Shown here: positions 10,829-13,668 of the stretch, one piece after another | Position numbering within the stretch: the first letter of the stretch is position 1 | Layout: each line of letters starts with the position of its first letter | From: a bacterium | GTDB taxonomy: Bacteria; UBP15; UBA6099; DSWB01 | Length of the DNA stretch: 14,829 bases | NCBI GenBank assembly: GCA_020061125.1 | Contig: JAGUYV010000371.1 | Location: forward strand, 1 to 14,829 | Direction of reading: 5' to 3' | Program-made: the position numbers and the translations under genes | The notes under the pieces: generated by a model | The model's input: only the letters and a program-made list of their open reading frames with translations | Told to the model about the DNA's origin: nothing | The model's database searches: none

Positions 10829-11791
10829 ATGGCGATCGAACACAGGCATAAAGGCAAACGCATCGGAGTGCTCATGGGCGGCAAAAGCGGCGAGCGCGAA
10901 GTCTCGCTGCGAAGCGGCGCGGGCGTGCTCGGCGCGCTCAAGCGCCAGGGCTATGATGCAATCGGCATTGATGTGGATGAGAATGTGGCGCAGAAACTGC
11001 GTGGCGAAAACATAGACATCGCGTTTCTGGCCCTGCACGGCCGTGGCGGCGAAGACGGCGCCATCCAGGGCCTGCTCGAAATCATGGAAATCCCATACAC
11101 CGGCTCCGGCATCCAGGCCTGCGCCATCAGCATGGACAAAACCGCAACCAAATTCGTGCTCGACCGCATGGGCATCCCCTACGCCAAAACTTACATATTC
11201 ACCCCCGGCCGCTGGGTTGCGGAACAGTGCGAAGAAATGCTCGGCCGCCTGCGCCTGCCCGTGATTCTCAAGCCCGCGTGCGAAGGTTCGAGCCTGGGCT
11301 GCGCACTCATTAAAAGCCGGGAACACGCCGAACGCGAAGCCGCTCCCCTGCTGGCAAAATATCCGGACCTGATCGCCGAGGAATTCATCAAGGGCCAGGA
11401 TGTGACCGTTGGCATCCTCGGAACCGGCGAGAACACCCGCGCCCTGCCCATCCTCGAGCTTGTGCCGGACAACGAGTTCTACGACTATGAGGCGAAATAC
11501 ACCAAGGGCATGACCAAATTCATCTGCCCGGCCAATCTCGACGACGATCTCACGCGCCAGGTGCAGCAGCTCGCCCTGGACACCCACCGCGCCCTGGGCA
11601 GCCATGGCGTGAGCCGCGTGGACATCATCGTCGGTCCGGACCGCAGCCTGTATGTCCTGGAACTCAACAGCATTCCCGGCATGACCGAAACCAGCGACAT
11701 CCCCGCGGAATATGAAACCGCGGGCGGCACCTACGACGAACTCGTCATCGAAATCCTCAACAGCGCCACGCTGGAGAGGCTGGGCTGTTGA
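10829..11791 (+). CDS. ddl: D-alanine--D-alanine ligase
   Basis: A 320-residue ATP-grasp ligase that joins two D-alanines in the cytoplasm for the peptidoglycan stem peptide. Key parts can be aligned with E. coli DdlB. GEREVSL has E22 matching E15. LHGRGGEDGAIQGLLE starts at residue 69, and EGSSLG (152-157) is the Ser loop. FYDYEAKY (217-224) ends in K223-Y224, matching K215-Y216. The metal ligands D265, E278 and N280 (LELNSIPGMT) have the same 13- and 2-residue spacing as D257, E270 and N272. The active site looks intact. The ATG at 10829 has GGGAG six bases upstream; the frame is open to 10676, but that extension lacks any family match. No mur or fts genes adjoin it, so ddl is outside a cell-wall cluster here. 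Confidence 0.93.
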   Translation: MAIEHRHKGKRIGVLMGGKSGEREVSLRSGAGVLGALKRQGYDAIGIDVDENVAQKLRGENIDIAFLALHGRGGEDGAIQGLLEIMEIPYTGSGIQACAISMDKTATKFVLDRMGIPYAKTYIFTPGRWVAEQCEEMLGRLRLPVILKPACEGSSLGCALIKSREHAEREAAPLLAKYPDLIAEEFIKGQDVTVGILGTGENTRALPILELVPDNEFYDYEAKYTKGMTKFICPANLDDDLTRQVQQLALDTHRALGSHGVSRVDIIVGPDRSLYVLELNSIPGMTETSDIPAEYETAGGTYDELVIEILNSATLERLGC

Positions 11792-11798
11792 AAGATGC

Positions 11799-11828
11799 TT
11801 GTCAAATATGCCAGCAACATGGTAATAT
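11799..11828 (+). promoter_or_regulatory. Candidate sigma-70-like promoter for the ATPase/STAS-like operon
   Basis: TTGTCA (11799-11804) and TAATAT (11823-11828) are separated by 18 bases, near the consensus for a housekeeping promoter. It lies eight bases past the ddl stop, where the AT-rich island begins, about 80 bases before the ATPase start. It is a pattern match only. Confidence 0.3.
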
Positions 11829-11854
11829 TGCTATTTAGCGTCTGGATGAAAGCG

Positions 11855-11894
11855 ATTGCGCGGCAATAACTATGAGATAGCCTGTATTGGCTAT
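11855..11894 (+). promoter_or_regulatory. Two successive inverted repeats ahead of the ATPase gene
   Basis: ATTGC-GCG-GCAAT (11855-11867) and ATAGCC-TGTATT-GGCTAT (11877-11894) lie between the candidate promoter and the start codon at 11908. They could be operator half-sites for autoregulation, or leader-RNA hairpins. No Shine-Dalgarno is visible between the second repeat and the ATG. Confidence 0.35.
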
Positions 11895-11907
11895 GCTGGT
11901 TTGACAA

Positions 11908-12879
11908 ATGAAAGCCTATATTCCTAACAGCGCATTCTTGCACAACATCGGGAATTTCTTCTCTATGTACGATCCTACCAATCCCGAATTCTTGTCAATT
12001 GAGTGTCATCCTAAATGGGTTCATGTGCATCCGGTCGTGCTTGCTATGCTTGCTTGTTTGGAGCATGGCATGTCAGAGGACAGTATCAGCATTTCGGGGA
12101 ACACACCTACATCCTTCACATATCTGACAAGAATGGGCTTGTTTAAGCACCACAAGAAAAACACTACATCAAAATCAATTGAGCATGATCCGTCCGGTCG
12201 GTTCATTCCGATTACTCAAATTACAGATTCGGAGAGTTTGGATGAATTTATATCTCAAATGGTGCCGCTGCTTCATACATCTCCAGATCAAGCAAGACCA
12301 ATTAAGTATGTTATCAGCGAGTTGATTCGCAATACACTTGAGCATTCAAGATCATCTAGCGGCGCGTTTATTTGTGCACAATATTTCAAGAAAGCCAACA
12401 GAATATCAATAGGAATTGCAGATTCGGGAATCGGCATTCTAAAAGCGCTTTCCTTTTGCCATCGCCCTAAAACGCATATTGACGCAATTGAAATGGCTAC
12501 CGAACCCGGAATTACAGGCGCGACATCAATTTTGGGAGGCAACGACACAAACGGCGGAGCCGGATTGTATTTTATCAAGAGGATTGCCAATGCAACGAAC
12601 AATTATTTTGTGATTTATAGCGGCACAGGCCTTTACAAACAATTAGTCGACAAATCTAAAAACAACTCACAGTTAGACATGTTCCAGCAATCAAAACCTC
12701 TTAAATACAAAAAGACAAACCACTACCCAAATTGGCAAGGAACAATAACTGGCTTTGATTTTTCATTAAACAGATCGGATTCATTCCAGTCGATCTTGAA
12801 TGAAATCAAAAAAACGTTTAATCTAGACATGAGGCAACAAAAAAAGGAAGTTTATAAAAGAAGGGCGCGATTCATATGA
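11908..12879 (+). CDS. GHKL-fold ATP-binding protein (anti-sigma/histidine-kinase-like ATPase)
   Basis: A 323-residue soluble protein with a histidine-kinase-type ATPase domain in the middle. The N box is ELIRNTLEH with E138 and N142, the G1 box is ADSGIGI with D172, and the G2 box is NGGAGLYFI at 215-223. There is no phospho-acceptor His domain and no membrane segment, so it is not a sensor kinase; SpoIIAB/RsbW-like partner switching is the nearest known role. Residues 25-85, with HPVVLAMLACL and later FTYLTRMGLF, may form a degenerate STAS-like or docking region. The C-terminus (about 245-323) is Lys/Gln-rich with no known motif. It overlaps the next gene by four bases. The gene is much more AT-rich than ddl, suggesting transfer. 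No Shine-Dalgarno precedes the start. Confidence 0.75.
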   Translation: MKAYIPNSAFLHNIGNFFSMYDPTNPEFLSIECHPKWVHVHPVVLAMLACLEHGMSEDSISISGNTPTSFTYLTRMGLFKHHKKNTTSKSIEHDPSGRFIPITQITDSESLDEFISQMVPLLHTSPDQARPIKYVISELIRNTLEHSRSSSGAFICAQYFKKANRISIGIADSGIGILKALSFCHRPKTHIDAIEMATEPGITGATSILGGNDTNGGAGLYFIKRIANATNNYFVIYSGTGLYKQLVDKSKNNSQLDMFQQSKPLKYKKTNHYPNWQGTITGFDFSLNRSDSFQSILNEIKKTFNLDMRQQKKEVYKRRARFI

Positions 12880-13199
12880 GCATAGAAATCAGCATTTTTG
12901 AAGTTGCTGGCGAATTCGCTCATAACAAAGACAAAGCTAGCGAATTGCGCAAACGCGTAATTATTCCCGGATTACAGAATGATTCAGCAATTCTAATAGA
13001 TTTTCAAAATGTGGATTTATCAACCCAGTCATTCATTCATGCTCTTATCAGTGAGCCGATACACATATTTGGTATTGATGTATTAGAACGAATCGCATTC
13101 AAGAACTGCAACGAAACAATAAGGACTCTGATTGAAATTGTCGTGGATTATTTGCAGGACGAGGAATGCTGTGTACCACAAGAATTAGACATATCGTAG
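12876..13199 (+). CDS. Small STAS-like protein (DUF4325-type)
   Basis: A 107-residue soluble protein whose ATG overlaps the ATPase stop (ATGA), so translation is probably coupled; AAGGG at 12861-12865 may help. The middle, ILIDFQNVDLSTQSFIHAL (39-57), matches the strand-then-helix core of STAS-like DUF4325 proteins. It is followed by RIAFKNCNETIRTLIEIVVDY. In classical anti-sigma antagonists this area carries a phosphorylatable Ser; here S49, T50 and S52 are candidates. It is the natural partner of the upstream GHKL ATPase, by analogy with SpoIIAA/SpoIIAB. No sigma factor or phosphatase gene is visible nearby, so the target of the switch is unknown. AT-rich (17/60 GC in a sampled stretch). 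Confidence 0.65.
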   Translation: MSIEISIFEVAGEFAHNKDKASELRKRVIIPGLQNDSAILIDFQNVDLSTQSFIHALISEPIHIFGIDVLERIAFKNCNETIRTLIEIVVDYLQDEECCVPQELDIS

Positions 13200-13232
13200 A
13201 CAACGGATTGGGTTCGCCGTTGCATCCCCCCC

Positions 13233-13253
13233 AGCGCAAGTTACCTATGCGCT
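13233..13253 (+). repeat. 6-bp inverted repeat in the gap after the STAS-like gene
   Basis: AGCGCA (13233-13238) and TGCGCT (13248-13253) pair around a 9-base spacer, just after a run of seven C (13226-13232). The 109-base gap 13200-13308 marks the change from AT-rich to GC-rich DNA. The repeat could be a terminator stem without a T-run, or a boundary scar of the AT-rich insert. Confidence 0.35.
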
Positions 13254-13308
13254 ATACGGAAGATATCATTTGAATGCTCCAATCGAAGCTTACAAATGAG
13301 GCGATCCA

Positions 13309-13668
13309 ATGGCTGAAAAGTCTGTATTGAACGCCATAAAGTTTCTTGGGAAATGCCTGGGACAGCATGGGGTGCGCATTTCCAGAATTATCCTGTTCGG
13401 GTCGTGGGCGCAGGGATCGGCGCGCGCGGACAGCGACATTGACATTGTTGTGATTTCTGATGATTTTGAAGGAAAGAGCATTTTCGAGCGCGCGGCCATG
13501 CTGCGCAACGCAAGGATGAAAACTCTGGATCGTTATCTGTACCCCATGGATATCCTTTTGAAAACATCCGGCGAGTATAACGACAGCCTCATCTCCCTGT
13601 ATGCGGACAAGGGCGTTGTTGCCTATTCTTCAACCGAAAAACCCCGGAAAAACAAAGCCTCGGCATGA
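13309..13668 (+). CDS. Minimal nucleotidyltransferase (MNT) domain protein
   Basis: A 119-residue protein of the DNA polymerase beta-type nucleotidyltransferase superfamily. The active-site signature is GSWAQGSARADSDIDIVV (residues 30-47), giving the GS-x10-D-x-D pattern whose two acidic residues bind Mg2+. Such MNT proteins often pair with a HEPN gene, as in MntA/HepT, where the MNT partner adds AMP to the HEPN toxin. No HEPN frame is seen on either side: upstream is the STAS-like gene, downstream is hypB. It may act alone, use a distant partner, or be a remnant. GAGG at 13298-13301 lies seven bases before the ATG. Base composition is back to GC-rich, so it need not belong to the AT-rich insert. 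Confidence 0.85.
   Translation: MAEKSVLNAIKFLGKCLGQHGVRISRIILFGSWAQGSARADSDIDIVVISDDFEGKSIFERAAMLRNARMKTLDRYLYPMDILLKTSGEYNDSLISLYADKGVVAYSSTEKPRKNKASA

Follow-up and report, generated by a model that had tools for sequence, protein, structure and literature searches.

The window, 14,829 nt in all, carries in order genes for MFS and sodium-solute transporters, a B12-radical SAM protein and an AcrB-type pump, then ddl, an AT-rich island and a small nucleotidyltransferase, with hypB and hypA lying on the opposite strand. Two genes that overlap by ATGA occupy the island (Table 1), just as the first-pass annotation of this DNA had described them: the upstream one encodes a kinase-like protein and the downstream one a small STAS-like protein. 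GC is 0.398 across 11908-13199 (an island of ~40% GC) and GC3 amounts to 0.429 in the kinase gene and 0.370 in the STAS gene, against 0.60-0.81 in every other gene of the window. Only four of 1287 unmasked 1292-bp segments of the same genome, taken from 16 unmasked contigs (four masked sampled contigs were left out), are as AT-rich, the mean GC being 0.593 with a standard deviation of 0.046. The first-pass annotation had illustrated the GC drop with 37/60 in ddl (11041-11100), a count that was reproduced, and with 19/60 and 17/60 in stretches of the island that it gave without positions; island 60-mers that were sampled gave 20-25/60. There is no second copy of either gene in this 79%-complete genome. 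The nucleotidyltransferase that follows (13309-13668, 110 bp downstream of the pair on the same strand) matches MntA-type antitoxin models below the cut-off (NF047752, 35.5 bits, cut-off 60) and has no HEPN partner beside it. Two further copies of related sequence exist in the genome (paralogues at 46% and 38% identity) and its GC is intermediate (0.503), so that it looks like an unrelated neighbour of the pair.

Table 1. Features of the AT-rich segment and of the two proteins that it encodes
Feature	Position	Strand	Basis
AT-rich, presumably acquired segment, ddl to next gene	11795..13260	.	GC profile 0.62 -> 0.38-0.43, recovery after ~13250
Kinase-like protein, 323 aa: STAS-like N-terminus, GHKL domain (SpoIIAB/RsbW-type), basic conserved C-terminal tail	11908..12879	+	Model, invariant residues
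N-terminal STAS-like domain, residues 1-88	11908..12171	+	Model topology; Pfam STAS matches in homologues; Pro42 at would-be phosphoacceptor position
Trp37, conserved aromatic	12016..12018	+	W37 or F38 in 20/20; one residue from CapK W68 / VapK F54 column
Predicted GHKL ATPase/kinase domain, residues 97-290	12196..12777	+	Structure match to SpoIIAB/RsbW
N-box, E138-xxx-N142-xxx-H146	12319..12345	+	Invariant in 20 homologues
G1 box, D172-S-G174-I-G176	12421..12435	+	Invariant in 20 homologues
G2 box, GGAGLYFIKR	12553..12582	+	G217, G219, L220 invariant in 20 homologues
4-bp ATGA overlap of kinase and STAS genes (translational coupling)	12876..12879	+	Same ATGA/GTGA overlap at 19/21 homologous loci
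DUF4325 STAS-like protein, 107 aa, presumed phospho-acceptor partner	12876..13199	+	PF14213 33.7 bits, model
Ser52 of invariant TQSF motif, candidate phosphosite	13029..13031	+	22/22 invariant; ungapped xSF match to CapS S54

The AlphaFold2 model of the 323-residue protein, built with 20 homologues, has a mean pLDDT of 78.6 and a pTM of 0.80. The best fold match of its GHKL domain is SpoIIAB (1til/1l0o; Z 9.8, rmsd 2.7-2.8 Å over 132-134 residues); RsbW (Z 7.4), UsfX and others come next, with topoisomerases, histidine kinases and Hsp90 ranking lower. Pfam scores of the large ORF stay below their cut-offs (HATPase_c_2, 21.2 against 27.4 bits; HATPase_c, 20.2 against 26.4), so that the GHKL assignment rests on the invariant N, G1 and G2 residues of 20 homologues and on the model. 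With its boxes intact, and with a SpoIIAB-like fold that lacks a histidine-kinase dimerisation domain, the protein is by sequence and predicted structure a GHKL kinase of the SpoIIAB/RsbW type. The first-pass annotation, which had proposed an anti-sigma-kinase type of GHKL protein next to a STAS antagonist, was right on both partners.

Two systems against which such a pair can be measured, CapK-CapS and VapK-VapS-VapC, were described in EMBO J in June 2026 (PMC13373217). CapK (HTH-STAS-GHKL), when provided with single-stranded DNA (ssDNA), phosphorylates CapS (STAS-wHTH) at S54, which breaks the CapS dimer and derepresses an immune operon; an operon of that kind, known or predicted, lies downstream of CapK-CapS in 348 of 443 cases (PMC13373217). 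VapK (STAS-GHKL) and VapS (STAS) control the VapC toxin, and the system protects E. coli from a phage. An aromatic residue, CapK W68 or VapK F54, is needed for activation (by ssDNA in CapK), and a repressor or toxin always adjoins the kinases published there. DUF4325 is not mentioned in that paper.

The N-terminal part of the window kinase, which lies outside the structure matches (these span residues 97-290), is modelled with strands at residues 2-5, 29-33 and 60-63 and helices at 15-19, 42-52 and 67-75, in beta-alpha-beta-alpha order. Among the N-termini of 22 homologues, two gave Pfam STAS or STAS_2 matches (best E 1.5e-6); the window kinase's own gave no Pfam match. P42 is invariant across 22 aligned N-termini, which makes a role as phospho-acceptor unlikely for this half of the protein. 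No match emerged when the N-terminal STAS part was compared with DUF4325 profile to profile, so that a duplication is not shown to have given rise to the two STAS units of the locus. The first-pass suspicion of a second STAS unit at this end of the ATPase is supported by the model topology and the matches in homologues, but its description as an uncommon fusion does not hold: STAS-GHKL is the standard arrangement in the published CapK and VapK (PMC13373217) and in every homologue seen. That STAS directly precedes GHKL in the window kinase, as it does in CapK and VapK, is indicated by model topology, by the Pfam STAS matches of homologous N-termini and by alignment. Trp37 lies inside a three-residue insertion, one residue off the aromatic column, in an alignment to VapK-like and CapK-like homologues (not to the paper's own sequences).

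The 107-residue protein is a single STAS domain with a short tail. It passes the gathering cut-off of DUF4325 (PF14213; 33.7 against 23 bits), so that the first-pass assignment to this STAS-like family withstood the Pfam profile search. Its model (pLDDT 92) has the STAS fold, with RsbV, RsbS, SpoIIAA and SLC26 STAS domains as the nearest solved structures. Among solved proteins the profile of the window STAS family matches Escherichia VapS alone (9Z7O, E 0.0039), and the STAS protein of a kinase-STAS-PIN operon (L002) matches VapS at 60.9 bits; on these profile matches DUF4325 is the STAS family of VapS. A candidate acceptor, S52, is located near the start of STAS helix 2, the same region as the CapS and VapS acceptors, within T50-Q51-S52-F53, which is invariant in 22 of 22 sequences. 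S52 shares its alignment column with CapS S54, the serine immediately preceding phenylalanine in ATDSSF, which pairs with TQSF without gaps. (The CapS numbering was set by the landmarks N145, K151 and G169-G170, the PDB chain of CapS being offset by 2.) VapS S48, however, aligns with Gln51, one residue earlier, and the identity of the acceptor is for that reason not certain. SpoIIAA S58 likewise falls one residue before the S52 column.

The two genes are found together and in the same order at all 21 homologous loci, whose hosts include Patescibacteria, archaea, WOR-1 and Actinomycetota. Clustering of neighbours across these loci found only the two genes to be shared; the others are unrelated housekeeping genes. 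A PADLOC scan of 62 neighbour proteins revealed no defence system, its matches being traced to a reverse transcriptase (L040), an FtsK-type protein (L027) and one PDC-S60-like protein (L043). Lacking shared neighbours and defence systems in that scan, the subfamily is a stand-alone pair. The survey for enrichment in defence islands that the first-pass annotation had suggested thus came out negative, and its label 'defence-type' holds only through the distant relatives CapK and VapK. Its observation that no sigma factor, phosphatase or effector is close by stands: the window holds no sigma factor or phosphatase and there is no linked effector. No PIN ORF follows position 13199 in the window or recurs as a shared neighbour in the close-subfamily loci, and a nucleotidyltransferase comes after the pair at none of the 21 homologous loci that were read. 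At one locus in Falkowbacteria (L040:10255-12234) a reverse transcriptase and then a small four-helix-like protein are encoded near the pair, an arrangement that resembles a diversity-generating retroelement.

The nearest homologues, mostly full length, share 31-47% identity with the kinase and 38-53% with the STAS protein, and come from Patescibacteria, WOR-1, Woesearchaeota, Altiarchaeales, one Acidobacteria bin, one Nitrospirae bin and three Actinomycetota. Their tree intermixes phyla (some of the hosts are metagenome bins and possibly misassigned) and places the window protein on a long branch without firm position. The subfamily is rare in the genomes sampled: eight of 286 Patescibacteria, two of 296 Actinomycetota and one of 29 from the Altiarchaeales group have it, and 299 Pseudomonadota genomes added no member to the two distant relatives used as starting points. 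Scans of genome and viral collections with the single proteins found no relatives, the subfamily was not found in IMG/VR with close-family alignments, and viral scans for fused STAS-GHKL-DUF4325 proteins found none. Within the phylum, seven species were compared; ddl is present in six of them and the pair is absent beside it in all five relatives whose ddl neighbourhood is readable, although in one case only 1.8 kb separate ddl from the contig end. A distant kinase-STAS-PIN operon is found in one relative (G001), at a different place in its genome. Gene order around ddl is not conserved at all among these relatives, so that there is no clean empty-site proof of acquisition. Nevertheless, GC3, patchy distribution and absence from the ddl locus of the five readable relatives make horizontal acquisition and spread of the pair the best reading of these sequences, in agreement with the first-pass annotation, whose refuting case of vertical inheritance at this locus did not arise.

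DUF4325 and GHKL domains also meet in other forms: besides the lone two-gene pair there are single-chain STAS-GHKL-DUF4325 and wHTH-GHKL-DUF4325 proteins, kinase-STAS-PIN operons, kinases with a STAS-wHTH partner (Actinomycetota) and kinase-STAS genes accompanied by one for a small protein that is predicted to span the membrane once. Ser or Thr occupies one of two acceptor columns in 86 of 94 DUF4325 proteins, the exceptions being mostly of the wHTH single-chain type. In these ~340-residue chains (L058:652-1692, L060:1456-2481, L111:694-1701, L113:679-1710, L121, L124) the acceptor serine is mostly replaced by Ala or Gly (GQAF/GHGF); they are self-contained regulators that, to judge by this replacement, probably dispense with phosphorylation at the acceptor site, and phosphorylation therefore cannot be universal for DUF4325. 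At several Pseudomonadota loci (L112:1724-2188, L114:1750-2193, L117:1765-2424, L126:1740-2216, L129:943-1395) GHKL-like and DUF4325 genes are followed by one for a ~150-220-residue protein with a single N-terminal hydrophobic segment (19-residue mean hydropathy 1.6-2.0). From their sequence these third proteins look like a membrane-type output of a kinase-STAS switch, of which no description was found in PMC13373217. Distant kinase-DUF4325 pairs adjoin a temperate-phage repressor or integrase in Marinitoga phage MPV1 (L006:6267-7620) and in the Francisella prophage KIRK (Fhv_0046-0047; PMC7924643). Solo STAS-GHKL proteins of ~340 residues that have no DUF4325 neighbour (L010-L025, L048-L056) are common on phage and plasmid contigs.

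Membership in several known systems was considered and rejected. The pair does not belong to CapKS or vapKSC, since the requisite wHTH and PIN gene are missing: the 107-residue protein has no C-terminal wHTH, what lies downstream is no immune operon but the MNT-like nucleotidyltransferase and, beyond it on the opposite strand, hypB and hypA, and no PIN-domain vapC follows the STAS gene. A 57.7-bit match to DrmA had suggested DISARM, but it is confined to an N-terminal extension that has no counterpart in ordinary DrmA. In the PADLOC DrmA model PDLC02567 the matches to the window proteins are limited to positions 43-255 and 316-390, ordinary DrmA matches start at 415-747, and DrmA from 198 Actinomycetota genomes lacks the extension. 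Approximately positions 40-395 of that long model are a STAS-GHKL-DUF4325-like stretch (L083, L120), hence false DrmA matches for stand-alone kinase-STAS proteins; some DrmA may carry the kinase-STAS module as a fusion. In Sulfitobacter (L047:2283-8678) a solo STAS-GHKL kinase comes after a helicase and a DrmB protein (DrmB, 258.9 bits), which suggests a kinase attached to a DISARM-like locus. Nor is the pair a sigma-factor partner switch in any sense that is shown, there being no sigma factor or phosphatase partner within the window, though unlinked ones may exist; the partner-switch-like logic that the first-pass annotation saw in the pair is nonetheless judged right.

With vapKSC the pair shares a kinase of STAS and then GHKL lacking an HTH, a small STAS-only DUF4325 partner, the kinase-STAS gene order and a conserved acceptor close to where the second STAS helix begins; it differs in having no VapC/PIN gene, whereas VapS has a C-terminal toxin-blocking helix (PMC13373217), and in a kinase only ~22% identical to that of the L002 vapKSC operon. 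With CapK-CapS it shares a STAS-GHKL kinase gene directly before the substrate gene and an xSF acceptor motif in the same column, but it has neither the N-terminal HTH of CapK, nor the C-terminal wHTH repressor domain of CapS, nor the immune operon (PMC13373217). SpoIIAB-SpoIIAA and RsbW-RsbV offer the same GHKL fold, STAS partner fold and E/N/H N-box; their kinases bind sigma factors and have no STAS half, and the surroundings of the window pair contain neither a sigma factor nor a PP2C phosphatase. Three Pseudomonadota proteins (L120, L128, L135) have the same three domains in the same order, with the same FAEDK and SF-type motifs, in one chain of ~425 residues, unlike the pair; no characterisation of them was found in the literature. 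It is these single-chain STAS-GHKL-DUF4325 fusions that argue for interaction of the two window proteins.

On balance, and with modest conviction, we favour the pair being a mobile, self-contained kinase-substrate switch of the CapK/CapS-VapK/VapS type that has no linked output. A signal bound at the STAS-GHKL junction of the 323-residue protein, most plausibly ssDNA arising from damage or phage attack, would turn the kinase on, and the activated kinase would phosphorylate Ser52 of the 107-residue protein. In its unmodified state that protein would be bound to a second copy or to some unlinked host protein; phosphorylation would end this association and so release an output encoded elsewhere. 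The gene structure, conservation of the partners as a unit, fold, kinase residues, candidate acceptor and horizontal spread are shown here; phosphorylation and the ssDNA trigger are carried over from CapK-CapS, and toxin release from VapKSC (PMC13373217). We infer that the pair acts as its relatives do, with output in trans: by analogy and sequence, the kinase-substrate core most likely works as in CapK and VapK, and the output is probably in trans. Retention of the pair at 21 of 21 loci (19 of them with the 4-bp overlap), a fold closest to SpoIIAB/RsbW, the kinship of DUF4325 with VapS, invariant E138, N142, H146 and G boxes, the TQSF motif with S52 in the CapS S54 column, and an aromatic W37/F38 in 20 of 20 close to the ssDNA-activation position all count for such a switch. 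Counting against it are the shifted acceptor column of VapS, the Ser-less wHTH class, the off-column position of W37 and the want of a linked effector or defence neighbourhood, and part of the case is comparison at 20-25% identity.

The same facts bear on the other readings. Absence of defence genes, housekeeping neighbours in small genomes and displacement of the ssDNA-site aromatic by one residue, within an insertion, would all suit a pair with the same kinase-STAS chemistry and another trigger, a ligand or host protein at the STAS-like N-terminus, which served a general stress output like that of RsbW/RsbV rather than sensing ssDNA or phage. We regard this as unlikely, since no sigma factor is linked and the patchy, horizontally moved distribution is more what one expects of an accessory or defence function than of a regulator of core stress responses. 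Less likely again is a selfish or toxin-antitoxin-like module, with the pair as its own effector or with the MNT-like nucleotidyltransferase as local output: a stand-alone two-gene cassette would fit, as would the position, strand and sub-cut-off antitoxin match of the nucleotidyltransferase, but that gene is missing after the pair elsewhere, and its two paralogues and intermediate GC set it apart.

Phosphotransfer might also be dispensed with altogether, the GHKL half opening and closing with ATP around a STAS protein that serves as fixed docking partner. The invariant Gln (Q51) at the canonical SpoIIAA/VapS acceptor position and the mostly Ser-less related single-chain proteins speak for this, yet the flanking T50 and S52 are invariant, S52 matches the proven CapS site and every N-box residue used by kinases is retained, so that we would put its chances slightly lower still. 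That the pair is the decaying remnant of a larger system after transfer, as its missing output might suggest, is very improbable, for neither reading frame is broken, every signature residue is retained, and the same minimal pair turns up at 21 unrelated places.

The switch that we favour gives DUF4325, a Pfam domain of unknown function, a testable function, and the occurrence of the DUF4325-GHKL core with wHTH, PIN or small membrane proteins, or in a single chain, marks it as modular. A minimal pair conserved across bacteria and archaea with no linked output poses the question of what a lone switch controls. Tentatively, since we hold it possible rather than probable, the subfamily may constitute a third CapK/VapK branch: a widespread two-gene kinase-STAS switch, present in Patescibacteria, archaea and a small number of further lineages, in which the STAS protein would control a target whose gene lies at another place in the host genome. 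If so, a single mobile pair would bring control by DNA damage or phage to an existing host function, even in very small genomes.
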